Shown here: positions 33,601-53,064 of the stretch, piece by piece
Numbering within the stretch: the first letter of the stretch is position 1
Layout of the letters: each line of letters starts with the position of its first letter
Origin: Streptomyces brasiliensis
GTDB taxonomy: Bacteria > Actinomycetota > Actinomycetes > Streptomycetales > Streptomycetaceae
DNA length: 64,000 nucleotides
Direction of reading: 5' to 3'
NCBI RefSeq assembly: GCF_014647875.1
Contig: NZ_BMQA01000003.1
Span: 62,001 to 126,000, forward strand
The notes under the pieces: generated by a model
The model's input: only the letters and a program-made list of their open reading frames with translations
Databases searched by the model: none
What the model was told of the DNA's origin: nothing
Position numbers and translations under genes: made by a program

Positions 33601-33954
33601 CGGGCGATCAGCGCGGTCAGCTGGCTCTCTGGGACGCACTGGGACTGGGTGGAGCGGTGCGAGTACCTCGACGAGGGCTCGTACCGGATAGTCGGGCTCC
33701 GGCTGAGGGGCAGCCATCCGAGCTGGGAGCCGTTCGAGCGGCCGAGCACCCAGCCGCTTCGGCCCGACCGCATCTACGTGGACAGTGCCCCGTACGGGGC
33801 TCCGGTCGATCTCTGGCCGTTCGCTGTCGTCAGCCTGTGCGAGGAGTGTCGGACCCGGGAGCTCTTCCTGCTCAATGAGGTCCGGGACGACCAGCTGACG
33901 CTCCGCAGCCTGGAGGAGCATTCGCTGGAGATGACGTACGGCCCGCCCGAGTAA
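30700..33954 (+). CDS. N6-adenine DNA methyltransferase fused to specificity-like and HEPN-like C-terminal domains
   Basis: A 1084-residue protein; start ATG 30700 preceded by GGAGG. Residues about 5-150 resemble the HsdM N-terminal helical domain; then the catalytic domain with motif I DPACGTAGLL (from residue 208) and motif IV NPPF (284-287), the gamma-type N6-adenine signature. Residues about 640-790 (LTLCSGGMLVGRPGNWRLLP; ARDLLDTHVPVDLVTD) look like a target-recognition half-domain. The final about 250 residues form a separate helical domain with RNTSHH (R940-x4-H945), a HEPN-type RX4H motif, and a terminal CxxC (C1047/C1050). Length is about twice a normal HsdM. Next gene, after 409 bp, is a GHKL-ATPase/nuclease. 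I infer a self-marking component of a restriction-like system; the HEPN call is tentative. Confidence 0.8.
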   Translation: MSDGTGHLSKLVWSVADLLRGDFKSSEYGRVILPFTVLRRLDCLLAPSRQAVLDEAERTDGEQEREQRLTAASGWPFYNSSRFSMESVLSEPDHADRLLLAHVNGYSRNVRELLDGFEFERTVNRLHQARLLYRVVAQFVSIDLGQMITDDHMESLFEELVRRFAESGNEASGEHYTPRDVAHLMAGFLVSADSDLLTSPHAVRTILDPACGTAGLLTEAASYIALMNPQADVTLYGQEINRESWAISRATMMTSGRRASTIAFGNVFAEDGHQGTAFDYLVANPPFGVDWKKSEYAVRSEHEQLGFAGRFGAGLPRINDGSLLFLQHMLAKMKPVSASGEGGSRIAVIFNGSPMYVGGAGSGESDIRRWIVENDWLEAVVALPDHLFYNTGISTYLWVLSNRKPAQRRGQVLLLNAQDQWQRMRRSIGSKRKYITSDQIAEITGLYLETISADPAQQPDDRVRVVSTHELMYQRVTIDQPLRLKYELSEEVLTRLAESRVIQKTHDPAALVAALRPLVGSTWTRGQEAVTALRRAVASAGVSWPRGKVFEAAVRKAVGVRDGDGEPQRIGEAYEPDPELREFVHLPLQVDPMDHLRREVHPTAPDAWIDDSRTRVGCEIPSALFYRPELDGEFELLRNLARLETTRVHPPQRGEEQEDGADRPKHLRAQDLHEADSAVELPDAPEDGVALTLCSGGMLVGRPGNWRLLPQGFGEAATSLFVLQPLRGSGQALCEWLNSRKDNGQYPSARDLLDTHVPVDLVTDSEVESLLETVQEGRRALRTTMSGILPNVFGSGERDVQGVRNEIRAAAHEAGLIGELVRPLDDPISRAEWSFPYHAAALSRRYRVSTHPAERKDGLLKLGEGLARVLGVLALTELAASNGFSRNLRKQFRTGATFGTWLWILDRLEAEGIEPRIQQLATVRDRGNARALLGHIKDFRNTSHHAHGVRASHQLAEDVERLEPHIVRAISAVSWLSGTHWDWVERCEYLDEGSYRIVGLRLRGSHPSWEPFERPSTQPLRPDRIYVDSAPYGAPVDLWPFAVVSLCEECRTRELFLLNEVRDDQLTLRSLEEHSLEMTYGPPE

Positions 33955-37300: not shown

Positions 37301-39796
37301 GCGGGCGACCGCCTGAGGGAGATGCGGCTGCCGACCTGGGACGACCCGCGAGACAGCGCCCGCCTCATCGCCGCGTTGGGGCAGCTTGCCGCGGAGGGCG
37401 CGTTGGGGGCCGAGGACCGGCCCGCCGCGCAGCGCGCCAACGAACGTGCCTGGAGGGACCTCGTACGGCGGCCCCTTCCTGCACTACCCAAGGGTGCCAG
37501 TATGCTCGCCGAGTCCGAGGACCGACTGATCAGCGTATCGCTGTCCGCCCTGGACGGCGGGGAAAGCGATGGCACTGGTGATGCCGGGACTGTGCTCTAC
37601 GTCAGCGGCGAACGCGACGGCCTGACAGCCCTTCTGGTGCGGGAGATGGGGCGGCCCCTGCTCACCCTTCCCGGTGTCTCGGCGAAGGCCGTCGAGCTGC
37701 TGGCGACCGAACACCCCGCCAGCGTCCGGCATACAGACGACCTGATGTTCACGGTAACCGTGGACGGAGCACGGGTGGACCCTGCGGCCATGGGAGAGCC
37801 ACTGGTCCAGCAGTTGCCCTGGCTCACGCTGGCCGTGGGCGTCCTCTCCGACCACTTGGCGCGCGGCCCCCGGGCGAGCGAGGCCGAGCTGAGCGAGTTG
37901 GTGTCCCTGGTCAGGAGCGTACGACTGCACCGTTACCACTCCTGGGACATCGAACTCGACGGCCGCCCCGTGACGTTGCCGGGCCGCCTCGGCGGAGTGC
38001 TGCCGCTGCCCGATCCGAAGCATCCGCTCGTCCTCGCCCCGGCGGGCGAAGCGGGCTGGCCCGAGATCACCCGCGTCGTGGTGGCACTCGCCGAGCTGTT
38101 GGGACGACGGGAGTTCGGCGACCGGCTGCGCCTCGCGGCCCACCAGCTCGCCTCCCTTCACGCCGATCTACGCGACCCGAGCCAGGAGGAGCTCGCCGAT
38201 GCCCTGGAAGTCACGGTCCACCAGGTCGAGGAGACGCGTCGCCGAATCGACGGGGCCATCGGCGTGGTCCTCGAACGATGCCGGCCCTTTCTCGTCCACC
38301 TGCTTGGTTCGGAGGCGGCGGAGTCGTTGTTCCTGCCGCCGCCAGGCGACACCCGGGAGTTCCAGGCTCGCCTTGAAGAATACGCCGACGAACTCCCGTG
38401 CCTCGTATCCGAGTTCATCGTCAGGGCACGCGCGACCCGCGGTACGGACGAACTGCGGCGCGACCTGGGCATCGGATTCGCCGAGCTGAACGACACCCTG
38501 CGCACGATGAGCCCGCCCCTGGGTCCGATCAGCCACGCCGCTGAGCACGAGGAGGCACTCCGTACCTACCTGGACCTGCGTAAGAAGGAGTTCGTCAACC
38601 GGCTGCGCTGGGCGGTGCTGGAGGACTTCGACGCGCACCGTCCGATCCCGGACTGGCCTTCAACCCGGACCCTGGACTGGATCACCGCGCCGGAGGCATG
38701 GGCGCACACCGTGGATACGGCCGACGCAGGGATCCTGGAGGCATACGTGGAGGAGCGGCTGTCACTGCGCCTGGGCCGCCCGGTACCGTTGCCCCGGTCG
38801 GGCGAACGTCTGCCCGCCCTCGACCAGGTGCGCAGCGCGAACCTCCGCACAATCACCGGCCTGGCTGCCGACCTCGCGATCCTGATCAGAGCAGCCGATC
38901 ACTCCTTGCCCGCCGCCTTCACCGCAGCCGAGCCCGCCGAGGAGGTCACCGCGCGGCTGGACTCTGTGGGAGCGCTGGACTTCCGCCCCCTCTCCCCCAC
39001 CGACGTCGCCAGCTGGCTGGTGACCATCGGCCAGTGGCCCGACGGAATGGCCGTGGCGACAGATCCCGCACAGCACGGATTGTCCGGGGCCGCCCTGGAC
39101 CGGGTGCGCAATGCGGCGGAACACGAACGCCGGGAACGTGAGCGCAAGCGGCGGTCGATCTCCGTCGGCGGCCGCGACTTCGACGTCCACTCCGGTGACT
39201 TCACCGCCCTCACCCGCGAACTCGCCCGAGTCCTACAGAGCGGCTCGGCGCCGGGGATCGCCGCCGTGGGACCGCTCCGCTTCACGGACCCTCGCCCTCG
39301 GCCCGGACACACCCAGGCCGGCAGTCGCACACGCGGGTGGCGGTACGGAGGGGGCACGGACAGCGGGCTGACCACGGTCCAGCGGGAGGCCATCGGGTAC
39401 GTGGGCGAGTGGTACGCGTACCAATGGCTGTGCGTGCACTACCCGGACCACGTGGACGAGACCAGCTGGGTCTCGGGTAACCGCCGTAAAGCCTTCCCCG
39501 GTCCGTCTGGTGACGACAGTCTCGGTTTCGACTTCCGGGTAGGCTCCGGCAGCCGGCCCTACCTCTACGAGGTGAAGGCCACTGTGGGCGAAGGAGGCCG
39601 CTTCGAGTTGGGAGAGAGCGAGGTCCGCGCGGCCCGCCAGCACGCGGGCAACGACCGTTGGCGCCTTCTGGTGGTCACCCACGCCCTCACTCCTCACAAG
39701 GTGGCCGTCCAGATGCTCCCCAACCCCTACGGGAAGCGCGGTCGGGGACGCTACCGCGAGGAGGGCGGGGCACTGCGCTTCTCGTACGTGCTCTGA
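34364..39796 (+). CDS. GHKL/sacsin-like ATPase with C-terminal NO VEIN (DUF3883) nuclease domain
   Basis: A giant 1810-residue protein; ATG 34364 with GGGGAGA upstream. Residues about 40-130 form a Bergerat-fold ATPase: N-box ELLQNGYDA (51-59), VANGGMPF (85-92) and the lid GIGNKGVGFRS (113-123), as in sacsin/Hsp90-like proteins. A long middle part is unassigned. The C-terminus has the DUF3883 pattern: GYVGEWYAYQWL (Glu1675 nearby), GFDFRVG (Asp1723), YEVKAT (Glu1736, Lys1738), i.e. an E...D...ExK restriction-type nuclease core. Known relatives occur beside helicases and methyltransferases in defence islands. I infer an ATP-gated DNA nuclease, perhaps working with the methyltransferase upstream. 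Confidence 0.82.
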   Translation: MARNARAKQLREYGLSVLEGARSEQVLRMARQVNAASYTSAREYAGRSLFELLQNGYDAHPRDRRGGRVHVLLDETEGEWGTLYVANGGMPFTWRDVERVCELAQSSKEVGEGIGNKGVGFRSILLISDAPEIYSADPDSPLGPELDGYCFRFAQKVDVEEFLAGEENAHEAASKYPPLQAPLPLDDVPATCRHLAAQGYVTVVRLPLLSEAARAEVRLRMRELAGSKVPVMLFLDRLAGLTLERRAAGGEAGELDDRREAHERYELTRSEDGFAVAQNGTGPELPVSCATVDLGSAGTFLVFRGTVEKERLNSALAEAVGCGLLDDTWQEWKRSAVVEVALPLPAARRPRRGQIYTFLPMAEDQAAPFPGHVNAPFFTTFDRTGFPADNPLNVLLLDAVAETCLAAAAVPRTVPEPSMRQLAVDLVSWESERGSARRLRAAALRVYGSELTDVPLVPVLSADGAPPEAGWAPPQDAVLWPDLNLTVLTAHRAHESEIVVADPEIGGDRLKRLATLCKALACPWEPSPEILAEYVERIVGGLPLPLSGESLEQWSALYEDLAALFEDDGHVLHGKQLLLAEDCTLRPTNRPLERAGAGISTRVQGKPSGQGARREAFFQPVRTEANETGAPSVPALLSKRLFSLHPGLVWKDRGERTRGRAARAFLEQEGLVRPYDTRGLLDHVRQALSASTDRRLRLQTLRFVFRLWQPRRSLGGTEISSLGLYVPSADGRLIRASDAVFGRGWGRASVGEDLAAVVAAGQDVSKSLKAIAGRLLAVPEEFAKRGETTPAEWWAFLLEAGVADGLLPVRSRDALSRVDQGRELTARQLIRMAKVSAEVQEQWEPYVRNWSSAYYPRTPYRGTPAWRLPGQDVVGRLGREARLAYARLVLHGLASWDDARFTSVWTSAGSQSSPDTERVPTPLGAFVREQPWLPVRGRDRAVRFVRPADAWRCPPGLEEEPSYAPTVDHRLRHLLERGKAGDRLREMRLPTWDDPRDSARLIAALGQLAAEGALGAEDRPAAQRANERAWRDLVRRPLPALPKGASMLAESEDRLISVSLSALDGGESDGTGDAGTVLYVSGERDGLTALLVREMGRPLLTLPGVSAKAVELLATEHPASVRHTDDLMFTVTVDGARVDPAAMGEPLVQQLPWLTLAVGVLSDHLARGPRASEAELSELVSLVRSVRLHRYHSWDIELDGRPVTLPGRLGGVLPLPDPKHPLVLAPAGEAGWPEITRVVVALAELLGRREFGDRLRLAAHQLASLHADLRDPSQEELADALEVTVHQVEETRRRIDGAIGVVLERCRPFLVHLLGSEAAESLFLPPPGDTREFQARLEEYADELPCLVSEFIVRARATRGTDELRRDLGIGFAELNDTLRTMSPPLGPISHAAEHEEALRTYLDLRKKEFVNRLRWAVLEDFDAHRPIPDWPSTRTLDWITAPEAWAHTVDTADAGILEAYVEERLSLRLGRPVPLPRSGERLPALDQVRSANLRTITGLAADLAILIRAADHSLPAAFTAAEPAEEVTARLDSVGALDFRPLSPTDVASWLVTIGQWPDGMAVATDPAQHGLSGAALDRVRNAAEHERRERERKRRSISVGGRDFDVHSGDFTALTRELARVLQSGSAPGIAAVGPLRFTDPRPRPGHTQAGSRTRGWRYGGGTDSGLTTVQREAIGYVGEWYAYQWLCVHYPDHVDETSWVSGNRRKAFPGPSGDDSLGFDFRVGSGSRPYLYEVKATVGEGGRFELGESEVRAARQHAGNDRWRLLVVTHALTPHKVAVQMLPNPYGKRGRGRYREEGGALRFSYVL

Positions 39797-40290
39797 TCTT
39801 GACTTTCAACCCCGGCCAAAATGAGCCGAGGCCACAGGGCCTGATCAAGTTCCGGAGTCGAGTGGCTGGACCGGGGCGAAATGAAGGAAGGGGGTCTCGT
39901 TGCTCTTGTCCGCGATCTGCCGGTGCCCAAGGACGGTGCCCGCGTGGCTCATGGCGGCCAGGAGCCACACGGACTTGCGGCCGGGAACGCGGGATCCGTG
40001 CAGGACCTTCCCGTCCACCGCCACGCCCCTCGACCGTGTCCCGGCCCGGCGGGAGTCGTCCCTAGACCAGAGGAACGCGCAGACCGCGGCATCGAGGGCG
40101 TCGCCGTTCGAGACGGCTGAGCAGCCGCATCACCGTGGTCGGGTGGGGCACTGAGACCGTCTTGCTGAGCGGATCAGTCCGGGGTGCGTCCGCGATCCAC
40201 TCGGCGGTCGCGGTCAGGGACCGAGCGCCAGACAGATATCGCATGAAGCGGGAGCCGTCATAATCGCAGTTCAAAGCGGGTATGCGGCCG
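39797..40290 (-). pseudogene. ISAs1-family transposase remnant
   Basis: Minus strand from about 40275: RFMRYLSGARSLTATAEWIA and VPHPTTVMRLLSRL, a frame shift, then DALDAAVCAFLWSRDDSRRA, VAVDGKVLHGSRVPGRKSVW, LLAAMSHAGTVLGHRQIADK. These are N-terminal and first-Asp (AVDGK) segments of ISAs1 transposases. The C-terminal half is missing. The 40291-40526 remainder shows nothing else. Confidence 0.72.
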
Positions 40291-40526
40291 ATCCAGACGG
40301 CTGTTGGAGCCTGGAGCGACTCCAGCACGGAGCGGCACCCCCCGCTGGAGCGCTCAGGGCACTCTGACACTCCTACGCGGCTTGCGGCCAAACCGATGCT
40401 CGGCTCCTTCGCACCCTGCCACCGAGAGGCACGGACCGCGTGCCTCCTGAGGGGCGACCAGCGATGGCCCCATGCCCTGGACAGTAGATGCCCGCAACCA
40501 CCTCGGCGGGGATCGAGATCCGCGCC

Positions 40527-40552
40527 GTGAACAGTTGCAGTGAACTGTTCAC
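40527..40552. promoter_or_regulatory. Perfect 10-bp inverted repeat, operator of the pPIWI-RE operon
   Basis: GTGAACAGTT (40527-40536), six bases, AACTGTTCAC (40543-40552), an exact inverted repeat. It ends 17 bp before the preferred start codon of the two-HTH regulator and overlaps the expected promoter, so autoregulation is likely. No Shine-Dalgarno lies between it and the ATG at 40570, suggesting a leaderless or very short-leader transcript. Confidence 0.75.
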
Positions 40553-40569
40553 TACGTTTTGCTTCCGGT

Positions 40570-41796
40570 ATGGCACAGTCCCTCCGTCCCCAGGCCCTGC
40601 AACGCCAACGATTGTTCAGAGACATGAGCGTGGAACAGCTCGCCGAGGCTGTAGGGGTTACGCCACGTGCTGTACGCCACTGGGAAGCGGGAACACGGAC
40701 TGTTGGTGACCGAGCTTTCGGCCGATTGCTAGAGGTTCTGCGGTGTGGTGCGCAGGATCTGACAGGGCGCGAACCGGGTACCGAGAGCCTGGCCGACTTG
40801 CGTCGTGATGCTGGCTTGAGCACGGAAGAGGCCGCCTCAGCTCTACGACGCAAGCGTGGTGCACACGGTCTGCATATCAGCGCCGAGAAGATCCGCGATC
40901 TTGAACGCGGCAGACGTGTGCGCGGCTGGATGTGGGGATCTCCCGAGACCCTGGGGAGAGTGGTGCACATGATCGCCCAGGTCTATAGAGTCCCCGACCG
41001 GGTGGTGATGGATGCCTGGCGCCGCAGCCGCCCGGAGGACCCTCTCCCAGTGCTTCCCGTCCGACGTCCCCGTCAGCCTTCCAAGGAGTCGATGGCTGTA
41101 TGGAGGGCCCTCAACGAGCGGCAACGTACCTATCTGACGTGCATCTTCCGTCACGACCAGGAGGTAGAGGAAGAACAGCGGCAGGCCCGCTTGGTGGGAG
41201 CGGAACAGCGACCGGCAGCCGAATGGCGGCGCATGACGTTGGCGATCTCCGCCTCGTCTGATGTAGTCGGGTACACCCGCATTCAGGAGGGGCTGCGCGC
41301 AGCGGGGGTACATGACCCAGGAGCTGGATCGTCGGTGGCCGCTTTGGAGCGGCGTGGCCTGATCGTCGTGTACCGGGACCGGCTGTATGTCGACGGTCTG
41401 GGGGATATCCCCCGTACCCGGGTGGAGATGACCCGGCACGGGCGAGCGGTGGCCCGTGCGGCCCTCGGGGCTCCCCGGGAAGCAGGACCACCTGCGCCGC
41501 TGCTGTCGTTGTGGCTCTGGAAGATCATGGTCCGGGTCGCGCGCGCCGGAGCGCAGGGGGTGGACGGCAGCCTCGCCGGGCGTGGGCCGCATTACCTGGC
41601 GGTGGGGCAAAGCCCTGATGGACGGACCCCGAGCCGGGGCTTCATCGTGTTGCGGCACCCCGACGGAGTGACTCACGGACCGTACCGGTGGTTCCTTACC
41701 GACTCCGGGCGAAGCCACATCGCCGACCACCTCGACGCCTACCGCGGCCTGTATCCCGGCATCGACACCGAGGGCCTCGACGAGAGCTCTGGCTGA
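40570..41796 (+). CDS. Two-HTH XRE-type regulator of the pPIWI-RE locus
   Basis: A 408-residue protein. First HTH at about residues 15-60 (MSVEQLAEAVGVTPRAVRHW, EAGTRTV); second, diverged, at about 80-130 (LADLRRDAGLSTEEAASALR, ISAEKIRDLERGRR). The C-terminal half contains a winged-helix-like part (SSDVVGYTRIQEGLRAAGVH, GSSVAALERRGLIVVYRDRL) resembling MarR-like wings. ATG 40570 is preferred over GTG 40540, which lies inside the operator. It is the first gene before the nuclease, helicase and pPIWI-RE genes. I infer that it represses the system until invasion. Confidence 0.75.
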   Translation: MAQSLRPQALQRQRLFRDMSVEQLAEAVGVTPRAVRHWEAGTRTVGDRAFGRLLEVLRCGAQDLTGREPGTESLADLRRDAGLSTEEAASALRRKRGAHGLHISAEKIRDLERGRRVRGWMWGSPETLGRVVHMIAQVYRVPDRVVMDAWRRSRPEDPLPVLPVRRPRQPSKESMAVWRALNERQRTYLTCIFRHDQEVEEEQRQARLVGAEQRPAAEWRRMTLAISASSDVVGYTRIQEGLRAAGVHDPGAGSSVAALERRGLIVVYRDRLYVDGLGDIPRTRVEMTRHGRAVARAALGAPREAGPPAPLLSLWLWKIMVRVARAGAQGVDGSLAGRGPHYLAVGQSPDGRTPSRGFIVLRHPDGVTHGPYRWFLTDSGRSHIADHLDAYRGLYPGIDTEGLDESSG

Positions 41797-41840
41797 ACTC
41801 CCCTCGGGATTCCCAGGGCCCATTGTCAGTGGCCTGCCGT

Positions 41841-43106
41841 ATGGTCCGGCACGTGATGCAAGCTGACGACACAACGGACATTCAGCAGACTCACGCACTG
41901 CTGGAAATCGTCAAGGCGTTCGCCGTGTGCGAGCACGCGATGGTCGGCGAGGGACTGGACGGGCCGAGACGCCTGGACCGCCTCATGGAGGCCCACGGCA
42001 TCCTGATGGCGGCATGCGGCCCGGGGCACCTGATCCTGTTCGACGAACTGATGGGCAGGCTCACTGGCGACCGGGCTGGCTCCCTGGAAGGGCTGCTGCC
42101 CGACTGGATCGACAGCGAGGCTCTCGCTGGCGTGCGGCTCATGGACAGCGAGGGCGTTGCCACGGAGGACGGGTTCGACTTCCGGCACGAAGCCCAGCGC
42201 GTCCTGCGGGCCGCGCAGAAGGTCGGGAAGTTCACCGGGCAGGTAACGAAACCGAAGCTGGATGACGAGTACAGCCAGGAAGCCGTCTTCAGCGCGATCA
42301 AGGGCTCCTTCTACCAGAGGCACCGCACCACTCTGGTTGAGAACCCGACGGTGCCGACGGGCAGTCTCACGGAGCTCAAGCTGCCCTCCCGGGCGAACGA
42401 CTTCTACAAGCCGATCGCCCAGTACGCGCAGTTCAACGGCTGGTGGTGGCCCTGCCCCGCCTGCAAGTGGCCGATGAAGGTGACAGCTGCCCGCACCGGC
42501 GCGCGCACAAGGGGCAGGGTGCGGTGTCTGTACCCCTGGCACGAGGAGACGGGCGCGTCGTACGAGTTCGTCGTGACCGCCCGGAAGAAGTCGGCCCCCG
42601 AACTGAGTCCGACGTTCGAATGCCGGGTCCCGTCCGGCCGGTTCGCACGCCTATGGACCGGGGCCGTACCGCACGTGCCGCAGGCCAAGCCGGCCGCAGA
42701 GTACATGGCGCTGGTACGGCCGGTGTGGCGCTACACCGTCATCCCTGGCCTACCCGAACTGGCCCTGCACCGAGCCGCCGCGGCGGCCCTGGAGGGAACC
42801 GCCTGGACATCACATCTGTGGCCCAACGGGGACCAGTGTGACCTGTGGATCACCCGCGAAGGAAGCGAACAGCCGCACTTTCCTGCTGACTTCAAGGACT
42901 ACACCTGGCCGAATCACCTGGTCAGCAAACTTCATATGGACGGCGGCGATAAGGGCGGCGCCGAGTACCTGGTAGTGCCCGACCATCGCCAGGACCAGGT
43001 GGCCCAGCTCCACGCGGTGTGCCGCACATACAGGATGAAGGCGGCGATGACCGCGACGGACTACCTCGAGATGGTCATCACGCAGATCAAGGAGGGCAAG
43101 GCGTGA
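41841..43106 (+). CDS. pPIWI-RE-associated restriction-endonuclease-like protein with Zn ribbon
   Basis: A 421-residue protein. The helical N-terminal half (TDIQQTHALLEIVKAFAVCE) is followed by a Zn ribbon C205-x2-C208...C229-x4-H234 (WPCPACKWPM; RCLYPWH). The C-terminal domain has CDLWITREG (Asp334) and PADFKDY (Asp350-x-Lys352), a PD-(D/E)xK nuclease core. This matches the REase that accompanies pPIWI-RE proteins (REase associating with pPIWI_RE family). Start 41841 or ATG 41856; no strong ribosome-binding site. Its stop overlaps the helicase GTG (GTGA). Likely the DNA-cutting effector of the complex. Confidence 0.78.
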   Translation: MVRHVMQADDTTDIQQTHALLEIVKAFAVCEHAMVGEGLDGPRRLDRLMEAHGILMAACGPGHLILFDELMGRLTGDRAGSLEGLLPDWIDSEALAGVRLMDSEGVATEDGFDFRHEAQRVLRAAQKVGKFTGQVTKPKLDDEYSQEAVFSAIKGSFYQRHRTTLVENPTVPTGSLTELKLPSRANDFYKPIAQYAQFNGWWWPCPACKWPMKVTAARTGARTRGRVRCLYPWHEETGASYEFVVTARKKSAPELSPTFECRVPSGRFARLWTGAVPHVPQAKPAAEYMALVRPVWRYTVIPGLPELALHRAAAAALEGTAWTSHLWPNGDQCDLWITREGSEQPHFPADFKDYTWPNHLVSKLHMDGGDKGGAEYLVVPDHRQDQVAQLHAVCRTYRMKAAMTATDYLEMVITQIKEGKA

Positions 43107-46100
43107 GCGGGGAGATGACGGGTAAGGAAGCCGGCCTGGCTGGAGCACTCGCTCTGGCCGCGCACTACTTTCCCCGCAAGGACGACGAGGGGCGCATCCT
43201 GGCCGGCTTCGAAGAAGCCACGTTCTTCGCCCACCGCAAGCCGCAGGCATGGTCGGATTGGGCGAGCTTGCCAGTGGCCGAGCGGAACCTGATCCGTCAG
43301 GTGATGGCCTTGATGGCTCCCGAATGGACGGATGCGAAGAAACTCAGGGCCGCCGTCCTCGCGCTCCTAGGCACCCTGGCCCCCGATCCCGACCTCGCGG
43401 ACAGGTCGGGAGGTTCGCTGCGGCTGCCGGCCGGAGACCCACAGCTGGCCGAGGCGGTGATTCCCAGGGTGGGAGGGGATTTCCTCGGATACGCACAACG
43501 CGTCACCGGGCCGTTCTTCACCTTCGGCAAGCGCCCCAAGGCACAGGCGTTCGCGGGCCCAGGAACCCTCAAGACGAGGACGGCCTACCTGGGCCAAGAG
43601 CACGGCACGACCAGTAGAGAGATCCATATCCAGGCGACTCCCGGCTTCCTTGAAGCGCCCGGCCACGAGGTGCTCCCGCAGGTGCACACCCGCCCGCAGC
43701 GCGACCGGGTCGCGCCGACAGTGAACCAACTCCTGGATGTCGCCAAGATCCTTAGCGGCCAGGACAAGAGCGTCGCCTACCTGCACAAGGTGCTCAAGCG
43801 CTTCTTCAAGGCAATGAAGACGACCGACGGCGAGCTGACCGAACTGGACCTGACGTCCGGAGACCTGCAGGTCCTCAACGCCCCCACGGGAAGCGGCAAA
43901 ACGGTACTCGTACGGGTCATGGCGTCCTGGGCAGCGCTCAACGACCGGCGAATCGCCCTCGCCGTCACCGATGTCCGCGCCACCCTGGACATGGCCTGGG
44001 ACATCAACAACGACCTGGCCTATCTGCACAAGAACAAGCACCTAGCCGAGCCCGCTCACTGCGCTCCGCTGATGTCCCCGTCGAGCATGCACCGGCGGGC
44101 CATGGACTACGCCGCCCTGGGTACCTCCACCCAGATCGACGAATGGGACCGGCGCGCCAGGACCGACATCGCGCTGCTGTCGGCCGGCTGCGCGCAGCGG
44201 GCGTTGATGGACCCGCCCACCCTGTATCCGTACGGGGAGGAGAACTGCACCTCGCTGACCTCTCCGGCCACCGGCTCCACCCGGCTCACCTGCTCCTTCG
44301 CCCCGGTGTGCGGCAAGTTCCAGCAGTTCTACCGGGCCACCGACGCGGCCGTGATCGTCACCAACCACGCCAACCTCCTGGAAGGCCGCACACGCATCGG
44401 TGTCGTCCTGGACGGGCAGGAGTTCCGCGGCAAGGCACGTGGCACCAGGGGCATGAGCGTCCTGGAGATGACGCTGCGCGCCTGCGATGCGCTGGTGATC
44501 GATGAGATCGATGCCTTCCAGACGGCCGCCATCAGCCGCTGTACCTCGGAGCTCACTCTGGCTTCCCGGAAACGGACGACCGCGTTGCGGGAGATCGACT
44601 CGGACGCCAGGAACCTGCCCGTCGTCCATGAGATGGCCCTTGCAGCGCCGGTCAGCCACGCGCGGCTCATGGCCGAGATGCTGCTGCTGTGGCTCTGCTC
44701 AGGCAGCGGGCTCAGGCTGAACCCGGGCAACGAGGCGGACAGCCCTGACGGGGCCAGCCGCGACAACACCGGCTGGCGCCTGGCCCGCTCGAGGGACCGT
44801 GAAATCCTTCAGCTCCTGTTCCCCCACCAGACCGCGGCCGACGACGTTCCGCCCGAGCTGTTCGCCTTCCTCGACGAGATCATGCCCGCCCGCTGGTACG
44901 CGGCCGGACCGGATGAGGAGGCCAAGCTTCCCGACGGAGCCGACTGGGACGCCATCCAAACAGCCCTGACGATCCTCACCGCGCAGCGCGGCCAGGACCA
45001 CCTCACCGACACTCGCGACGCGATGCGCACGCTCCTGCGTGAGCTCGTGCCCGATGCGCATCAGCAGGCCGCCGTGGTGAACCTGTTGATCACCCGCACC
45101 GTGCTACGGGAACTCGACAGCGCGCTGGACGAGCTGCGCATGCAGGCCCAGACCCTGCGCTATCTCGACCTGGGATCGGTCCGCAAGATCCTTGAAAGCA
45201 TGCGCAGCAGCACGGTCGCCACCCTCTACCCCCTGGCCATGCTGGGCCGCTCCATCCACGGCTACCAGGTCAAGGGCATGGACAAAAAGGAGCAGGAAGC
45301 GGAACTCCTGTCACGTTCTTTCGGCGGCGATCCGCACACCTTCGTCAGCGAACTCGGCGGCCTCACCGCCCTGCTGGCGGCCGGCGTGCAGCGTCCCGTC
45401 ATGGGCCTGTCCGCCACCGCCTACCTACCACAGGCCGTACAGGAACACATCCATGCCCCGGTCCGCTGGTGGCTCCCCGACACCCGTCCGGAGTCCATCG
45501 TCACCCTCGCCACGCCTGTACGGGGCAGCAGCGGGGATGCCATGAGGATCGGGGGTCTCCCGCCAGAGCTGAAGCCCAACGCACTGCGCGATCTCGGCCG
45601 GGGCCTGTACGAGCAGCAGCTCGCCAAGCGCCTGGCCCGCCTGGAGAAGCACGAACCGGAACGGGCCCGCGTCATCCTCGCCGTCAACTCCTATGAGCAG
45701 GCCGCCTACCTCGCCTCCGGGGTGGCACAGGCCGACGGGCTGAACCACCGGATCTGCCTGCTGGTGAAGAAGCCGGAGAAACAGAACTACGAGGAGCACC
45801 TGCCTGCCCACGTGGACCGGATGGTCCGCGAAGAGCTCAAGGAGTTCCCCGACCGCGGAGAGATCCTTATCGCCCCCCTCGCCGTCATCGGCCGGGGCCT
45901 GAACATCGTCGTCGGAACGCGCTCGGCAGTCCGCGACATCTATCTGTGCGTCCGGCCTGTCCTGAGCATCGAGGACACCGACTGGCTGCACGCAAGCGTC
46001 AACGCCGCCGGTTACAACACCCTTCCCGCCGGCGGCAGCGACGAGCCCTTGGCCGTCCTGCGCGCAGCAGGCGAAGCCTCCTGGAAGCAACTCACCAAGA

Positions 46101-46402
46101 TCCTTCGCTCCCCGGCCCGGTTCTCCAACATGGACCACGACCTGCGCAAGGAACTCGTCGCAGGAATGCTCGTCCTGCTCATCCAGCTCGCCGGCCGTGC
46201 CCGGCGGGGCGAGACCGACATGACCCTCCACATCGTGGACCACTCCATCCACGACAAAAAGTTCAGCTCCGACCTGGCCACGATCATCGAACAGATCTAC
46301 CGCGACTGGACTCCGAAACAGCGCGACATCATGAATGAGCTCTACGGTCAAGCGCTTCAGGCATTCCTGACCTATGCAGGGCTCGACCGCGAGACGCTCT
46401 GA
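43103..46402 (+). CDS. DinG/XPD-type Fe-S helicase of the pPIWI-RE system
   Basis: A 1099-residue superfamily 2 helicase starting at GTG 43103 (AAGGAGGG upstream). Walker A APTGSGKT at residues 260-267, Walker B DEID at 467-470, and motif VI QLAGRARRGE near the C-terminus. Four cysteines between motifs I and II (C363, C382, C397, C403) are placed like the Fe-S cluster ligands of DinG/XPD helicases. The N-terminal about 240 residues are an extra domain. DinG-like helicases are the constant partner of pPIWI-RE proteins. It should unwind target or guide duplexes; translationally coupled to the nuclease gene. Confidence 0.82.
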   Translation: MSGEMTGKEAGLAGALALAAHYFPRKDDEGRILAGFEEATFFAHRKPQAWSDWASLPVAERNLIRQVMALMAPEWTDAKKLRAAVLALLGTLAPDPDLADRSGGSLRLPAGDPQLAEAVIPRVGGDFLGYAQRVTGPFFTFGKRPKAQAFAGPGTLKTRTAYLGQEHGTTSREIHIQATPGFLEAPGHEVLPQVHTRPQRDRVAPTVNQLLDVAKILSGQDKSVAYLHKVLKRFFKAMKTTDGELTELDLTSGDLQVLNAPTGSGKTVLVRVMASWAALNDRRIALAVTDVRATLDMAWDINNDLAYLHKNKHLAEPAHCAPLMSPSSMHRRAMDYAALGTSTQIDEWDRRARTDIALLSAGCAQRALMDPPTLYPYGEENCTSLTSPATGSTRLTCSFAPVCGKFQQFYRATDAAVIVTNHANLLEGRTRIGVVLDGQEFRGKARGTRGMSVLEMTLRACDALVIDEIDAFQTAAISRCTSELTLASRKRTTALREIDSDARNLPVVHEMALAAPVSHARLMAEMLLLWLCSGSGLRLNPGNEADSPDGASRDNTGWRLARSRDREILQLLFPHQTAADDVPPELFAFLDEIMPARWYAAGPDEEAKLPDGADWDAIQTALTILTAQRGQDHLTDTRDAMRTLLRELVPDAHQQAAVVNLLITRTVLRELDSALDELRMQAQTLRYLDLGSVRKILESMRSSTVATLYPLAMLGRSIHGYQVKGMDKKEQEAELLSRSFGGDPHTFVSELGGLTALLAAGVQRPVMGLSATAYLPQAVQEHIHAPVRWWLPDTRPESIVTLATPVRGSSGDAMRIGGLPPELKPNALRDLGRGLYEQQLAKRLARLEKHEPERARVILAVNSYEQAAYLASGVAQADGLNHRICLLVKKPEKQNYEEHLPAHVDRMVREELKEFPDRGEILIAPLAVIGRGLNIVVGTRSAVRDIYLCVRPVLSIEDTDWLHASVNAAGYNTLPAGGSDEPLAVLRAAGEASWKQLTKILRSPARFSNMDHDLRKELVAGMLVLLIQLAGRARRGETDMTLHIVDHSIHDKKFSSDLATIIEQIYRDWTPKQRDIMNELYGQALQAFLTYAGLDRETL

Positions 46403-46493
46403 ACTGATCACGCCCGTCGCCGCCTTGCCGCGGCGGAGACGGACCCGCATCCTCTCCCCAACGGAGAGACCGAGAGACGAGGTACCCCCGCTC

Positions 46494-49478
46494 ATGGGGC
46501 GAAGCAACACTCAGCGGGATCTCACCGCGCACACCACATCGATCCGGTGCACCCCCGAGCTCCTGGACGGCATGACCGCCCTGGTCTGGGACTTCGGCGA
46601 CTACCACTCGCCCATCCGCACGGCCTGGAGGGATTTGGGGAGCACGGCCTCAAAGAACGCGAAATGGATCAAGGGTGTCCAGGAATCCGACCCCTTCCTG
46701 GTCCCCTATTCCATCGCTGTCACCGTGCTCCAGCAGATCACCGATGGCTACGTCTACCTGGACAAGTACCTGGCCTTCATGGTGACGCTCAACCCCGTGG
46801 AGCCCGACGCCCTCAGGACGGTCTTCACTTACCTGGAAGGCATCGTCCGCCGGATTCCTCTGGATGAGATCCCCTTCATGGATCCACCCACCTTGGCCCG
46901 ACTGGTCGCGGACGTCGCTCCTGAGCGCCGAAGCCTGGCTATAAACATCCTCCAGGAGGAAGACGGCAAGCCCGCCAGTCCGGACAGCTGGGCCTACGAG
47001 GCGGTGAAGTGGCACATCGCCAAGAAGCTGGCGGCAAAGCCCTTCCTCGACCGGGAAGTCGAGCCGGTCCGTGAGGCGTACGAGGCGGCGAACGGCCAGG
47101 TGAAACACAGGACCGTCGGCTGGCAGCCCTCCGACAACGTCGCGGCCGTGCAGTACCGGCCCATCAGCAACGGTGACCTGATCGCCTGGGAACAGCCCAT
47201 CGGCCCGGTCTTCGCCACCCTCGCCCACCCGGTCGACCTCGCCGAAGCGCTCAAGGCCCGTCCCGAGAACCCCACCCGCAGTCAAGTCCAGTATGCGCTG
47301 TCCCGCCTGTCGGTGAAGATGGCTACCTACACGGCCGAGCCGAACCCCGTCCTGAATCTTGACGCTCACATCCGGCGCATCAACAACACGGTGATCCACG
47401 CCAGCACCGTTCTCGTGGACCAGGGAACAGACCGGCCGATCATGTCTGTGTCCCTGGATGGGCGCGGTCTGCGGCAGACGAACAAGCACGCGCTGGAAAT
47501 CCTGGCGAAGATGGACGCCGACCGGTCTTCGCTCAACGCCATCGAGGAACGCGCCGCCGGTGAGCGCAGCCGCCTGAACGCCAGGGACGAAAATGGCAAG
47601 AGGATCGACATCCTGACTCCTCCTCCTGGAGCGATCAGGCCGACCATGCCGAAGGCGGACTCCTTCGCTGTCGGTACCGGCGCCGGCATCTACCATCTCT
47701 CCCTGCTGCGGGAACACATCCAGCGAGTCTTCGGTGACGCCGTCTCCCTGCTCGACCTGAAGTCGAAGGGAAATGTCTTCGGTAAGCGTTCCCACGAGCC
47801 CGCCACCGCCGCCCAGGAGAAAGAGAAGAAACAGAAGAAGCAGGATGGCGAATACGTCGATCTCATCGGCAAGCCCTCCCCGGAGGGTATTCGCCGTTCC
47901 ATCGAAGCGGCCGGCTACAAGAAACTCCGCATCCTGTGCCTGTGGTACCGCGACGCGACCCTCACGCGGATGATCCACGGTCTCGCCCACCCCTACGGGC
48001 TGGACCCGGAGGGCATCGATCCGGACCCTGGCGGAAAGAAGTCCTTCCCGCTCGCGGACGGCATCGAAGCTGTCTTCTGCAACGCCGAAGCCCTGCTGGA
48101 GCACGGCCCCGGCACTCAGCGCGCCACTGACGCCCAAAGGATCGCCGGCACCTTCGCAGAACCCGGCGTCCTCCTCGCCGCCTGGTGTGAAACAGAGATC
48201 CCGGTGCGCGGCGAGGAACACGAGGGCATGAAGCCCGCCGAAGTGAAGACCGCCCTGGCGGAGAACGACGCCAAGCACCAAGTCGTCCGGGAGCTCGCCA
48301 AGGCCGCAGTGCCGTCCCAATTCCTCGTCGGCCGCGAGTACGACCCGTTCACCAAGACCTTCACCATCATCAAGAGGCCCGCGAAAGCCTTCGAGGATCA
48401 CCGCGTCTACATGGGTCTGCTGGACCTCTACCGTTCGTGCGGGGTCGTGGACGACCGCTTCGAGCGTGCCCTCTACCCCGGCGACGACACCTACCCGCTG
48501 CCCCGCATGGCCTTCTGCGGCATCCACATCCGCAAGCAGGCCACGGACCGCAAGTACAAGGGCCAGCCCAAAAGGATCATCACCGCCAGCGTGATCATCC
48601 CCTCCCCTGAACCCGGCGGCCCGTGGCGCATGATCGGCTGGAGCAACATCCACCCGCAGTGGGAGCACTACGCCCTCGCACAGAGCAACTTCCACGCCGC
48701 CAACTACCCTCTTCACACTGAAAACGGCGACGGCGAAATCCAGCGCTGGGCACAGGCCGGTGAAGACGTCCGCACCGCCCTCCAAGAGCTCCACGACGAG
48801 CTCGACGGCCTGCCCTACGCCTTGATGATCGACGGTCACGCCAGCCGCCGTGTATGGCCCGGCCTCCACAACAACAAGCAGGGCCTCGGAAAAGATCCCG
48901 GCGACCCGCGCCTTTGGCTCCCCGCAAGCGGACTGCCCCCGTCCTGGAATCCGGTCAGCATCATCCGCATGAACTGCGCGCAGGCGGAAATGCCCCGCCT
49001 GGTCGCCGTCACCGAGAAGCAGAAGAACGGCAAGACCGTCCCGCTCAAGACCTCCAGCGACCTCTACTACCCGGAAGCCCGGCCCGAAGGCCACCCCTGG
49101 TTCCTGTTCACCGAACCCCGCAACTACGGCAAGAAGCGCCACGGGCAGTGGAAGACCCGCTGGCGCGCCGACCCGGGGAAGGCATCGAAGAATGCCGACG
49201 AGCGCAAGGAGAACGAACTGAGCGCACCGTGGTACAGCATGACCACCAGGGAGATCACCCCCATGCACACGCGGGACGGCTACGACCGAGAGATTCTCGC
49301 GGTTGCCGCGGCACGGCTTTGTCACCAGGCGCTCTCCTGGTCAGACCGGACGCGATACCCAGCCCCGCTCCACGCCGCGCTTCAGATGGACCTTGGCCAC
49401 CCCCAGTACCGACGCTCCGAGCCGAAGGACTTTGAGAGCATCGAAATCCTGAGGGAAGCCAGCGGCACCGACCTGTAG
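46494..49478 (+). CDS. pPIWI-RE protein (Argonaute/PIWI-like, DUF3962/DUF3893)
   Basis: A 994-residue protein of the size and layout of pPIWI-RE proteins. N-terminal helical/beta region, MID-like part, then a C-terminal RNase H-fold PIWI domain: KRIITASVIIPSPEPGGPWR, YALMIDGHASRRVWPGLHNN (Asp780), TTREITPMHTRDGYDREI (Arg919/Glu920) and CHQALSWSDRT. The Arg/Glu-bearing strand matches the feature that names the family (RE), though I cannot map the catalytic residues with certainty. ATG 46494 has GACGAGG upstream. It follows the REase and DinG genes, completing the three-gene module. Expected role: guide-dependent recognition of invading DNA or RNA-DNA hybrids. Confidence 0.82.
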   Translation: MGRSNTQRDLTAHTTSIRCTPELLDGMTALVWDFGDYHSPIRTAWRDLGSTASKNAKWIKGVQESDPFLVPYSIAVTVLQQITDGYVYLDKYLAFMVTLNPVEPDALRTVFTYLEGIVRRIPLDEIPFMDPPTLARLVADVAPERRSLAINILQEEDGKPASPDSWAYEAVKWHIAKKLAAKPFLDREVEPVREAYEAANGQVKHRTVGWQPSDNVAAVQYRPISNGDLIAWEQPIGPVFATLAHPVDLAEALKARPENPTRSQVQYALSRLSVKMATYTAEPNPVLNLDAHIRRINNTVIHASTVLVDQGTDRPIMSVSLDGRGLRQTNKHALEILAKMDADRSSLNAIEERAAGERSRLNARDENGKRIDILTPPPGAIRPTMPKADSFAVGTGAGIYHLSLLREHIQRVFGDAVSLLDLKSKGNVFGKRSHEPATAAQEKEKKQKKQDGEYVDLIGKPSPEGIRRSIEAAGYKKLRILCLWYRDATLTRMIHGLAHPYGLDPEGIDPDPGGKKSFPLADGIEAVFCNAEALLEHGPGTQRATDAQRIAGTFAEPGVLLAAWCETEIPVRGEEHEGMKPAEVKTALAENDAKHQVVRELAKAAVPSQFLVGREYDPFTKTFTIIKRPAKAFEDHRVYMGLLDLYRSCGVVDDRFERALYPGDDTYPLPRMAFCGIHIRKQATDRKYKGQPKRIITASVIIPSPEPGGPWRMIGWSNIHPQWEHYALAQSNFHAANYPLHTENGDGEIQRWAQAGEDVRTALQELHDELDGLPYALMIDGHASRRVWPGLHNNKQGLGKDPGDPRLWLPASGLPPSWNPVSIIRMNCAQAEMPRLVAVTEKQKNGKTVPLKTSSDLYYPEARPEGHPWFLFTEPRNYGKKRHGQWKTRWRADPGKASKNADERKENELSAPWYSMTTREITPMHTRDGYDREILAVAAARLCHQALSWSDRTRYPAPLHAALQMDLGHPQYRRSEPKDFESIEILREASGTDL

Positions 49479-49496
49479 GTATAGGGACGGCTCCGA

Positions 49497-50063: not shown

Positions 50064-51152
50064 TCATACGGCGACGGTGAGCGGAACGTCCAAGCGCTCC
50101 CAGGCACCAAGAACGGCCTTGTGCGCGTCCGGTTGAAGGTGAGCGTAGCGCTGGGTGGTCTGAAAGCTCTCGTGGCCGAGGAGGTGCTGGACCTCGTAGA
50201 GCGAGACTCCCTTCTGGACCAGCCATGAGGCACAGGTATGACGCATGGAGTGCGGCGGGTAGTGCGGGACGAGTTGTTGCTCGCCGTCGGTGTCGAAGTA
50301 GTGGGCGGCGTCGACGGTGGGCCACCAGGTCTGCCGGCGCCAGTTGCTGTCGGCGAGGAGCCGTCCGGCACGGCCCTTGGTGATGGTGGTGAACACCACG
50401 GCGTCGCGGTCGAGCCGGTGGATGTGGCGTTCGAGGGCCTCTAGGACGTGAGGCGGGAGCGGGACCTCTCTACGACTCTTGGAGCTCTTGGGGTACTCCT
50501 TGATGCCGCTCTTGCTGTTGACCTCCACCACAAACAATCGCGAGCGGCGCTGGTCGATGCGGTGGCGATGCAGGCCAGACAGTTCTCCCCAACGGAGTCC
50601 GGTGTAGAAGCCAAGCAAGCACATCGTCCGCCACGCGGCGGGGAGTTCGTCCAGGATGCTCTGTGCCTGGTCAAGCGTGAACCACTGCGGCGGCTTGACC
50701 GCGATCTGAGGCAAGTCGATGTTGCGGCACGGGGTCACCGCCAGGACATCGTCGTCGACGGCAGCGCGCATCATGGAGGATGTCAGGTTGTAAGCCCGTT
50801 TGATCGCAGCGGCCCCCGCCCCTTTCTCGACCAGGGTCCGGATCCAGCTCTGGACGTCCATACGAGTGATGGCCCGCATCTCCCAGTCCGCCCAGTAGGG
50901 CATGACGTGGTTCTTGATGTTGGACGCATCGCCGCGAAGCGTGTGGGGCTCAACGATTCGGGCGTTCCACCATCGGTCGTGCCACTCGCGGAATGACATC
51001 TCACCGGCCCGCGGGTCGCGCATGCCTCCGCGGGCGAACTGGGTCTCCATCTCGATGCCCCAGGCGCGCGCCTGCGCCTTGAGGGGGAACGACTCGCTGA
51101 ACCGGTCTCCTGTCCGGTTGCGTACGGTCGCCTGCCACTTGCCGGACTTCAA
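50064..51152 (-). CDS. Tyrosine recombinase (phage-type integrase)
   Basis: A 362-residue integrase with N-terminal AP2-like arm-binding part (GKWQATVRNRTGDRFSESFP), core-binding SAM-like domain (SFREWHDRWWNARIVEPHTL) and catalytic domain with all key residues: Arg in YTGLRWGEL, HSMRH (HxxR), HLLGHES and the Tyr in QRYAHL. It appears intact. Upstream codons are limited to TTG 51152 unless the true start uses an unusual codon, because a stop lies about 33 bp upstream. It sits behind a small excisionase and at the right edge of the defence island, so it is the best candidate to have moved it. Confidence 0.88.
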   Translation of the reverse strand: MKSGKWQATVRNRTGDRFSESFPLKAQARAWGIEMETQFARGGMRDPRAGEMSFREWHDRWWNARIVEPHTLRGDASNIKNHVMPYWADWEMRAITRMDVQSWIRTLVEKGAGAAAIKRAYNLTSSMMRAAVDDDVLAVTPCRNIDLPQIAVKPPQWFTLDQAQSILDELPAAWRTMCLLGFYTGLRWGELSGLHRHRIDQRRSRLFVVEVNSKSGIKEYPKSSKSRREVPLPPHVLEALERHIHRLDRDAVVFTTITKGRAGRLLADSNWRRQTWWPTVDAAHYFDTDGEQQLVPHYPPHSMRHTCASWLVQKGVSLYEVQHLLGHESFQTTQRYAHLQPDAHKAVLGAWERLDVPLTVAV

Positions 51153-51213
51153 CTTACGGAGGTACGAGGCTCTACTCCTTGTTCAACGGTGACGGGGCCG
51201 GGATGGGCCAAGG

Positions 51214-51420
51214 TCAGCGGCGGGCTGCCGGCGGTACGACGGCACGGCGGCTGATGAACTCGTCGAGGCTGGCCGCGGGGACCCGAACACGGGACCGGCC
51301 TGATCCGGTACGGAGGTCGACGACTGGCAAATCGCCGGCAGCGATAAAGCGGTAGACGGTGCGGCGGTCGACGTCCAGGGCGGCGGCGACGGCCGGGATG
51401 GACAGCAGGCGTGCAGGCAT
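51214..51420 (-). CDS. Excisionase / HTH_17 DNA-binding protein
   Basis: A 68-residue MerR-like winged helix: LLSIPAVAAALDVDRRTVYR, FIAAGDLPVVDLRTGSGRSR, VRVPAASLDEFI. This is the HTH_17 excisionase pattern found just upstream of integrases in actinomycete integrative elements. AAGGTTCTCC precedes the ATG. It would direct excision and bend DNA at att sites. Confidence 0.82.
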   Translation of the reverse strand: MPARLLSIPAVAAALDVDRRTVYRFIAAGDLPVVDLRTGSGRSRVRVPAASLDEFISRRAVVPPAARR

Positions 51421-52737
51421 GGAGGAGAACCTTGAGGTAGGGATGGACTTGGGGTCGGCGTGTCAGCAATCGGCGGGTCGACCGGGAGACCTGCAGCTCG
51501 GCAAAGACCCTCATCGACCGTCAGCTTTTGCCCAGGCCGAACCGGAACCGCTACTGACATGACGCCGTCCCGCGATTGCGGATAGACGCGGAGTCAGCAA
51601 GCGAGACGGACAGGCCCGCCAGGCCGGGGTGAAAGGGCAGGGGGTATCGCGGATCGGCACATCAGGTGAAGTTCCTCGAGAGGGAGCACACTGGCGACAG
51701 AACGGAATCAGCAACGCCAGAGTGCCCTCACGCAAACTCGACTTGGGAATCGTTGCTTTGAGGAAACCAGGGCTGCAAAATCAGGGAAGCCGCAGGCGGG
51801 GCCGCTCATTACCTCCTTGCGACTTGCGGCACTACCGCCTGCATCCCGTAACGGCTCCACCGCCAAGCACAGCCGCTACGAACACCCTCAATGGTCATCA
51901 CGATCGCCGGTTTGGCTAACCGGCGATCGTGGTCTATGTTGCGCACCGCATCAAAGGGATCCGACAGCACCTCGGGCTGGCCGCAGTCAGGACGCCAGCC
52001 GGTGAGCGCGGGGATGAGGCCGCACCGTTCGCGACAAACACCAGCAGACCGTCATCGGGTTGGCGGTCACGATCCCCCTAGCACGCTCAGGAACCGCGAC
52101 GGCATGGGCCACGAGCCGAGTTGCAGCTCCGGGGTGCGCCGCAACATGTGCGAGGACGGCCCTATCGCGGCGGTAGCCGTGTGGCAGCAGATCCTCGCCG
52201 AACAGGCCAGCCGTTCAGTGCACCGAACGCAAAGAGGAAGGGGGGATGATGAGCATGCAACGAATAGCGGAACCGGCAGGCGGGCCTCCTAAGTAGTGCC
52301 GTGCCAGCAAAATAGTCCGGCGCGGTGCAGGGTTCCGAATCATTCGCAATCCGGCGCACTGGAGTAACTGCATGCGTCTGATTTGGTGTTTTCCGGGACG
52401 TTATACGTTGGCATGCTCCCGGCAGAAGTTTCCAGTCCTTTGGAGTTCTTTCCTGTCTGCCGTGGGCGAATGCCAGCGGACAACTGTTGGAGCCCTCCTG
52501 CCACAGACCCGTTGAGGCGGGCATGCGTCGGCACCCGCATCATGAAGCCGGCACACAACCTCGTTGACGAGGAGACCTTCACCGTGGTTTCGGAGCGACG
52601 CGCCACCCAGAATGACCCGCAGCCGTCTGACTGATCCGGGCTGGTGGGTAGTTCCCCCCTCACCGGTAGCGACCGGCTTTCGGCGTGCCCTTGACGGCTG
52701 GGTAGGGTCGCGGTACCCGAGCTGAAGAGGTAGTTGC
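51421..52737. other. 1.3-kb stretch without assignable genes
   Basis: No recognisable family in any frame. Base composition is lower in GC at about 52300-52470 than in the neighbours. One plus-strand frame (51891-52292) and one minus-strand frame (52162-52524) stay open but look non-coding. Contains the hairpin at 51899-51931. It may be decayed mobile DNA between the integrase and the backbone gene cutA. Confidence 0.4.
51899..51931. terminator. Perfect 14-bp hairpin
   Basis: CACGATCGCCGGTT, loop TGGCT, AACCGGCGATCGTG. No gene end adjoins it, so it could be a terminator of a lost gene or a recombination-related structure. Confidence 0.4.
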
Positions 52738-53064
52738 ATGACCAACGAGATTGTGATCGCGCAGACGACCAGCGACAACGAGGATCAGGCGAAGGCTCTG
52801 GCCCGTGGCGCGGTCGAAAGCAAGTTGGCAGCGGGCGTTCACATTGATGCGCCGATCACAGCCTTCTACTGGTGGAAGGGGAAGGTCGAGACGGCGCACG
52901 AGTGGCGGATCTCGTATATGACTACGACGGACCGTCTCCCTGCACTGGAGGCGTGGCTGCACGAGAAGCACCCGTACGACGTCCCCCAGTGGATCACACT
53001 GCCCGTGACCGGAGGGTCGGAGGCGTATTTGTCCTGGGTTGTTGCGGAAACGGCCCGGGACTGA
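52738..53064 (+). CDS. cutA: CutA1 divalent-cation tolerance protein
   Basis: A 108-residue PII-like trimeric protein: VIAQTTSDNEDQAKALARGA, VESKLAAGVHIDAPITAFYW, WKGKVETAHEWRISYMTT, HPYDVPQWITLPVTGG. All CutA1 landmarks (VESKLAA, FYWWKGK, HPYDVP) are present. AGAGG lies upstream. Linked to copper tolerance in E. coli, but the molecular role is uncertain. Stand-alone gene; first backbone gene right of the island. Confidence 0.93.
   Translation: MTNEIVIAQTTSDNEDQAKALARGAVESKLAAGVHIDAPITAFYWWKGKVETAHEWRISYMTTTDRLPALEAWLHEKHPYDVPQWITLPVTGGSEAYLSWVVAETARD

Follow-up and report, generated by a model that had tools for sequence, protein, structure and literature searches.

A clade-specific four-gene form of the pPIWI-RE system in Streptomyces brasiliensis with a likely autoregulatory switch

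The window analysed here, a stretch of 64,000 nucleotides of Streptomyces brasiliensis DNA (contig NZ_BMQA01000003.1, positions 62,001 to 126,000), carries a pPIWI-RE locus composed of four co-directional genes, all on the forward strand and in the following order: a regulator gene (40570-41796, 408 aa, start ATG at 40570), a restriction endonuclease (REase) gene (41856-43106, start ATG at 41856), a DinG-type helicase gene (43103-46402), and the pPIWI-RE gene (46494-49478, 994 aa). The regulator and REase genes are separated by 59 bases, the REase and DinG genes overlap by 4 bases, and 91 bases lie between DinG and PIWI. Pfam and PADLOC profile searches recognise in 41856-49478 a complete REase-DinG-pPIWI-RE triad, the PADLOC models PprDinG (307 bits, E 6e-92), PprPIWI (377 bits), and pPIWI_RE_REase (PDLC02430, 103 bits) all being matched. 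A preliminary description of this DNA had proposed a pPIWI-RE identity and a strict REase-DinG-PIWI order; the first is borne out by the matches to PF18154, PF13032, PF13111, and the PADLOC Ppr models together with an Argonaute fold, and the second by the window genes and by the relatives, in which the order is also kept. The locus is a pPIWI-RE system of a clade-specific four-gene form, with a likely autoregulatory switch, and not a new kind of system.

The regulator, already regarded as dedicated in the preliminary description, belongs to the module and is inherited with the triad as one clade. Loci with this regulator are called REG-type, or REG clade, in the following, and some rows represent the same genome twice (e.g., L008/L117, L009/L124, and L014/L120). 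A DinG tree was built with FastTree from 113 rows whose DinG frame exceeds 900 aa (the window, 14 of 16 named loci, 79 of 80 genus loci, and 19 from an additional set of 20). All 35 rows in which the regulator lies upstream fall into a single clade of this tree, corresponding to a single change with support 100; FastTree warns of long branches, and the regulator clade itself is starred, while the nuclease labels derive from called genes (46 loci) and the clade is independent of them. The scan of named genomes gave a close PIWI in 16 loci, and 14 of these have all four genes in order (L011 and L012 being broken inside); in the same set L005 stops at a contig edge and L017 is a remnant. In L012 the regulator and REase are 1.9 kb apart and the PIWI gene is split by about 1.3 kb (10958-12279) with a reverse-strand frame of 305 aa. 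The module is found in Streptomyces and in related soil bacteria; among the named loci, that of Acrocarpospora pleiomorpha shares 61% identity in PIWI and 63% in the regulator.

PF13032 is present in 110 of 392 Streptomyces genomes, and the regulator is found at E <= 1e-10 in 38 places of 32 of these genomes. The strongest 22 places (E <= 1.6e-44, some partial) are all beside a PF13032 place, about 7-8 kb off; of the weaker 16, four are beside PF13032 (two of them second fragments and two, G095 and G097, having the C-terminal part past PIWI) and 12, consisting of the C-terminal part only, are away from it. At the class level, 394 genomes gave 4 regulator places in 4 genomes (E <= 1e-35), each beside PF13032 and also about 7-8 kb off. 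Among 80 genus loci the regulator is upstream in 20, only its C-terminal part is downstream in 2 (L153 and L157), a PD-(D/E)xK nuclease is found in 49, and neither in 9; in all reading frames, the regulator and the nuclease of the PprPDDEXK kind occur together in none of the 80. This nuclease was found neither in the 16 named loci nor in the window, where 30001-56000 was searched in all frames of at least 90 aa. A larger arrangement occurs in 21 of the 80 loci (L078-L096, L099, and L100; e.g., L080:1443-7977), in which an N6 methyltransferase, a Ser/Thr kinase (on the other strand in L080), and a PD-(D/E)xK nuclease precede REase-DinG-PIWI; L097 has an NB-ARC/TPR protein and L125 unnamed genes instead.

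The promoter and the four genes move as one cassette, because homology runs from the promoter to the PIWI stop and ends sharply there, the flanks being different. In particular, the DNA of L003, L004, L006-L010, L014, L016, L117, L120, and L124 matches the window from 40529-40551 to 49471-49489 with no flank match over 150 bases, and L011 and L012, interrupted inside, have similar homology ends (to 49478 and 49471). L013 matches 40708-49429, homology is slightly longer in L002 and L015 (40368-49568) and in L113 (40414-49560), and L112 matches only patches of DinG.

The predicted promoter (40535..40563, forward strand) consists of a -35 element TTGCAG (40535-40540), a 17-base spacer, and a -10 element TTTGCT (40558-40563) followed by 6 bases to the ATG, and from this last spacing the operon mRNA is predicted to be leaderless. 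A TTGC-N19-T layout is shared by 28 of the 30 regulator genes with a placed start (the exceptions are L107 and L150), and the -10-like T-bounded hexamer ends 25 bases past TTGC and lies 6 (17 loci), 7 (9 loci), or 8 (2 loci) bases from the ATG; the promoters of L191 and L192 fit the layout by eye, and L107 has TATAAT six bases upstream of the ATG instead of it. A sigma-70 scan, in which the second base of the -10 must be A, gave no site at the operon promoter, and Rfam at gathering scores gave no structured RNA match near the operon.

A predicted operator, the inverted repeat AGTGAAC-T-GTTCACT (40539..40553, without strand), overlaps the spacer and the last bases of the -35, and an additional half-site GTGAACAGTT is located beside it at 40527-40536. 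An odd palindrome of arm 7 at this place is attained in 2 of 1000 shuffles, and the operator core GTGAACNGTTCAC has a single occurrence in the 10.69 Mb genome, at the operon promoter. The palindrome with one central base sits behind the -35 in the same register across lineages, in three classes: GTGAAC-T-GTTCAC in the window type and Acrocarpospora; TGGAAC-T-GTTCCA in L126 and L133; and TGAAG-T/A-CTTCA in L112, L118, L119, L121, L139, L140, and L191 (imperfect in L123, L192, and L105). The palindrome of L004 is also imperfect. The arms covary: in 20 promoters 85% of cells pair versus 70.3% in shuffles (standard deviation 2.0), both-sided changes occupy 24 cells versus 9.4 in shuffles (standard deviation 2.0) and 1-6 in slid versions, and five pairs have a double change, a number reached by 23 of 500 shuffles. 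The innermost pair is C-G in 10 rows and G-C in the other 10; the innermost C accompanies a recognition helix of the first helix-turn-helix (HTH) ending in W(E/Q)(A/T/S)G and the innermost G one ending in (W/Y)E(E/K)G (19 of 20 rows by eye, the L105 helix not being among those compared). The preliminary description had also proposed an operator, and the covariation between arms agrees with it, but the conserved core is the odd palindrome of 13-15 bases at 40539-40553 rather than the 10-6-10 repeat then indicated; that repeat (40527-40536/40543-40552), whose 10-base arms are perfect, is common only to L002 and L015 among the first loci compared, and L113 has a 10-6-10 repeat as well.

Since the arms change together between lineages, the palindrome is read as an operator, and the regulator is predicted to bind it in the promoter from which its own gene is read, between the -35 and -10 elements, likely repressing the operon. 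Several observations weigh against this reading. Further pair types in the operator arms do not exceed those of the shuffles (239 of 500), and relatedness, which the shuffle control leaves in, also yields paired arm change. A reversed control pattern is likewise single in the genome, and a lone operator site proves little by itself. Moreover, L006, L007, L008, L016, and L117 have the -35 and -10 and lack the palindrome, L107 carries a different repeat, and no palindrome was found in the L150 promoter. In the palindrome-less rows of the L006 type the recognition helix differs (PASVRRW vs. PRAVRHW).

The regulator is predicted to have the architecture XRE-XRE-winged helix-winged helix. The XRE HTH domains are located at residues about 7-65 and 74-153 (HTH_31, 42 bits in two stretches; HTH_3, 35 bits); the tandem winged-helix domains, at residues about 172-300 and 311-395, are read from the secondary structure of an AlphaFold2 model (pLDDT 84.6), in which the first shows helices 183-208, 237-244, and 254-261, strands 265-274 and 278-287, and helix 289-299, and the second helices 314-329 and 339-343, strands 359-362 and 373-376, and helix 378-394. 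The C-terminal part has no Pfam family match, and the WYL family is absent from the Pfam matches of the regulator at E <= 1. Structure comparison of the whole regulator listed matches of the first HTH only, so the C-terminal fold is assigned by the secondary structure of the model alone; the first HTH has a fold like that of P22 c2 and of the restriction-modification C proteins C.AhdI and C.Csp231I. Such phage repressors and C proteins are not known to have more than one HTH or a winged-helix pair, unlike the present regulator. The preliminary description had spoken of a "two-HTH" regulator, to which the model adds two further predicted DNA-binding domains, the winged helices.

Neither XRE domain is present in the regulators of L144, L145, and L193, which retain the remainder (frames of 244-249 aa) and start at an ATG preceded by a Shine-Dalgarno-like GAAGAAGG or GAAGAGGG; this also counts against a simple repressor, since where such proteins exist repression cannot be the whole function of the regulator, and it suggests that the winged-helix half may do something besides binding this operator. 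The winged-helix part, for which Pfam has no name, is likewise found in L158-L169 as frames of about 250-600 aa, some partly repeated, away from PF13032. A second regulator-like frame of 322 aa is present on the opposite strand about 4-5 kb past the PIWI gene in L009 (17629-18594) and L010 (17139-18104).

The pPIWI-RE protein (46494..49478, forward strand) is matched by PF13032 RNaseH_pPIWI_RE (E 6e-71, 240 bits, cut-off 25) and PF13111 pPIWI_RE_X (E 2e-15, 57.2 bits, cut-off 30.5). The MID model PF18157 remains under its cut-off (17.0 bits vs. 26.6), and the structural match to Argonautes spans this region. The structural model matches whole Argonautes, and the protein appears Argonaute-like throughout. 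The RNase H domain (residues 675-971) contains the conserved R/E pair, R825 (102 of 115 rows) and E920 (109 of 115), which by order and spacing relative to R639/E718 of PsPIWI-RE are taken as the putative R and E of the pPIWI-RE family; all 35 REG-clade rows conserve R825, E920, D780, and H960. The family Arg had previously been placed in the motif TTREITP, but that residue, R919, is Arg in only 24 of 115 aligned rows. Strand 673-681 bears G676-I-H678 at the site that we take to be the place of the first catalytic Asp of Argonautes, and all 35 REG-clade rows have His at position 678, while not one of the 115 rows has Asp there. Because His replaces the first catalytic Asp, the PIWI protein is predicted not to cut. 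L170-L181 constitute a distant Streptomyces pPIWI-RE subgroup with REase and DinG present and an RNase H core without the GxHxR strand motif and D780.

The REase (41856..43106, forward strand; PF18154 pPIWI_RE_REase, E 8e-21) has a Zn ribbon (C200-C203-C224-H229) and a PD-(D/E)xK site (D329, D345, and K347). The residues of this site correspond to the D...DxK motif of the preliminary description, whose numbering D334/D350/K352 becomes D329/D345/K347 from the ATG at 41856. All 34 REG-clade rows have the seven residues intact; of 59 rows outside the clade, 11-12 have lost each of D329, D345, and K347. Its active-site residues being intact, the REase is predicted to cut DNA. None of 10 REG-type REases matches the helical domain Y (PF18156), which the L080 REase does, and the profile alignment to the L080 type spans only residue 139 onward. 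Thus, of the profiles named in the preliminary description, pPIWI_RE_X and RNaseH_pPIWI_RE are above cut-off, DinG is covered by PADLOC PprDinG, and pPIWI_RE_Y is unmatched. The DinG helicase (43103..46402, forward strand) has a Walker A at about 260-267, four cysteines (363, 382, 397, and 403; predicted Fe-S), and DEID at 467-470, and the cysteines and DEID residues, already named in the preliminary description, are present in 35 of 35 REG-clade rows. A search of solved structures by sequence gave no credible relative of PIWI, DinG, or REase.

Taken together, it is probable that the locus is a four-gene pPIWI-RE module, inherited as a unit, and that the regulator acts as repressor of the predicted leaderless promoter from which it is itself expressed, holding the predicted defence genes low until needed. 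All four genes would be on one transcript from the predicted promoter, which the regulator, sitting between the -35 and -10, would shut; a signal of invasion, perhaps sensed by the two winged-helix domains, would relieve the repression, so that the operon may be inducible as the preliminary description had supposed. The PIWI protein, without the first catalytic Asp, may then detect RNA-DNA hybrids (guide/target or R-loop) but leave them uncut, DinG may unwind or track along such hybrids, and cutting of the invading DNA would be left to the REase. A tight switch is plausible because the nuclease gene stands early in the operon. A more ambitious and rather doubtful version considers the four components as one machine, in which the dead Argonaute relative would be a guide-bound sensor, the REase the sole cutter, the XRE half would shut the operon, and the winged-helix half would act with the effector on DNA, which would explain its retention where the XRE half is lost.

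Different explanations can be advanced for the regulator. An association by chance with an unrelated neighbour, suggested by the other genus triads that have another gene or neither in that place, is hardly credible for this clade; the single DinG clade of 35 rows, the 22/22 co-location, and the joint cassette ends speak against it. The regulator could instead be a working effector subunit conferring DNA binding or specificity, with XRE autoregulation secondary or lineage-specific: an XRE-less regulator occupies the same place in three genomes (the full triad being seen in two, L144 and L145), a winged-helix-only gene lies directly past PIWI in L157, which has the full triad, and in L153, where no REase or DinG was found by profile, and HTHs fused to the REase were once proposed to confer sequence specificity (PMC3702460). 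We judge this improbable, since paired changes maintain operator symmetry at the regulator's own promoter, 58 of the 80 triad-type genus loci lack such a gene, and the winged-helix part is away from pPIWI-RE in 12 of the 16 weaker places.

The readings of the effector genes are likewise to be compared. The PIWI protein might be an active guided nuclease like its Pseudomonas counterpart PsPIWI-RE, which is also beside dinG and cuts DNA using RNA guides (PMC10991935), with His678 or other residues supporting catalysis; D780, R825, E920, and H960, conserved throughout the REG clade, would be compatible with this. However, PsPIWI-RE requires both D525 and D610 (PMC10991935), and His fills the position taken as the counterpart of D525 throughout the REG clade (35 rows), with no Asp there among the 115, the equivalences H678/D525 and D780/D610 being drawn by order and spacing and not by direct alignment, so that an active nuclease seems distinctly unlikely. 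There is similarly little likelihood that the operon serves replication or R-loop housekeeping and not defence: the loss of PsPIWI-RE altered cell division and ciprofloxacin sensitivity (PMC10991935), but the presence of the system is patchy even for the whole PF13032 family, the flanks are unrelated, and neighbouring genes match candidate defence models. A repressed defence module with a PIWI protein that would not cut is the reading preferred here.

The triad closely resembles the three-gene pPIWI-RE system of Burroughs, Iyer, and Aravind, who proposed in 2013 that PIWI senses RNA-DNA hybrids, DinG acts on R-loops, and the REase cuts (PMC3702460): both have the strict order with the REase first, close or overlapping gene ends, a Zn ribbon joined to the REase, a Cys-rich DinG, and the conserved R and E. 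The differences are the domain Y, unrecognised by Pfam here, and the separate XRE-XRE-winged helix-winged helix gene, the HTHs described in that source (LexA, TetR, MerR, and one other) being N-terminal fusions of the REase. Like PsPIWI-RE of Pseudomonas stutzeri (PMC10991935), the present protein has the R/E pair, and its gene lies in a cluster with dinG and a gene for a putative restriction enzyme; unlike it, His stands here in place of the first of the two catalytic Asp present and needed there. The PADLOC Ppr group with PprPDDEXK is the commoner form in Streptomyces, and the models PprDinG and PprPIWI match both forms; the PprPDDEXK form has a PD-(D/E)xK nuclease gene (PF12705; PprPDDEXK 462 bits in L080), which the window locus lacks.

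As for the regulator, BrxR/CapW (PMC9122601, PMC9122589, and PMC9122588) and RptR (PMC12255303) are also encoded with a defence operon and act at its promoter, as is predicted here. In contrast to this regulator, BrxR/CapW are WYL proteins, and RptR is described as a small protein with the minimal site TAGCTA, compared with 408 aa and four predicted DNA-binding domains. No paper on a pPIWI-RE regulator was found among the matches listed by title and abstract start, in a search largely outside subscription papers and preprints; the matched words in PMC7641849 stand for Piwi-related. The pPIWI-RE systems are frequent in Streptomyces, as the genome counts indicate, yet little studied, only two of the papers listed being devoted to them by title or abstract. 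The compact cassette has a switch and one operator, both predicted, and its PIWI protein is not expected to cut; the genus is tractable, and removing one gene or the operator could address whether the operon is for defence and what PIWI does.

The location on a mobile island suggested in the preliminary description is partly supported: the sharp homology ends and the travel of the whole cassette agree with it, and other expected marks are scarce. A tyrosine integrase gene (PF00589) is located at 50064-51152 on the reverse strand, with about 84% DNA identity in L002 and L015 up to 51421, but an integrase-like gene is in the available flanks of only 4 of 35 REG-type loci (the window, L002, L015, and L105) and, weakly, of 2 of 62 others. 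The search for att repeats between 39801-40700 and 51101-52800 gave only two direct matches of 11 bases. Carriage of the close form by plasmids was considered and rejected, no near plasmid match being found and the PIWI relatives of 15 plasmids being distant (23-31% identity), and carriage by viruses was likewise discarded, viral contigs having yielded no relative. Directly upstream of the operon lies a further candidate defence system, composed of a type I methyltransferase (30547-33954; PDLC03029, 686 bits; N6_Mtase) and of a protein of 1810 aa (34364-39796) that matches PADLOC TmtA with 1719 bits.

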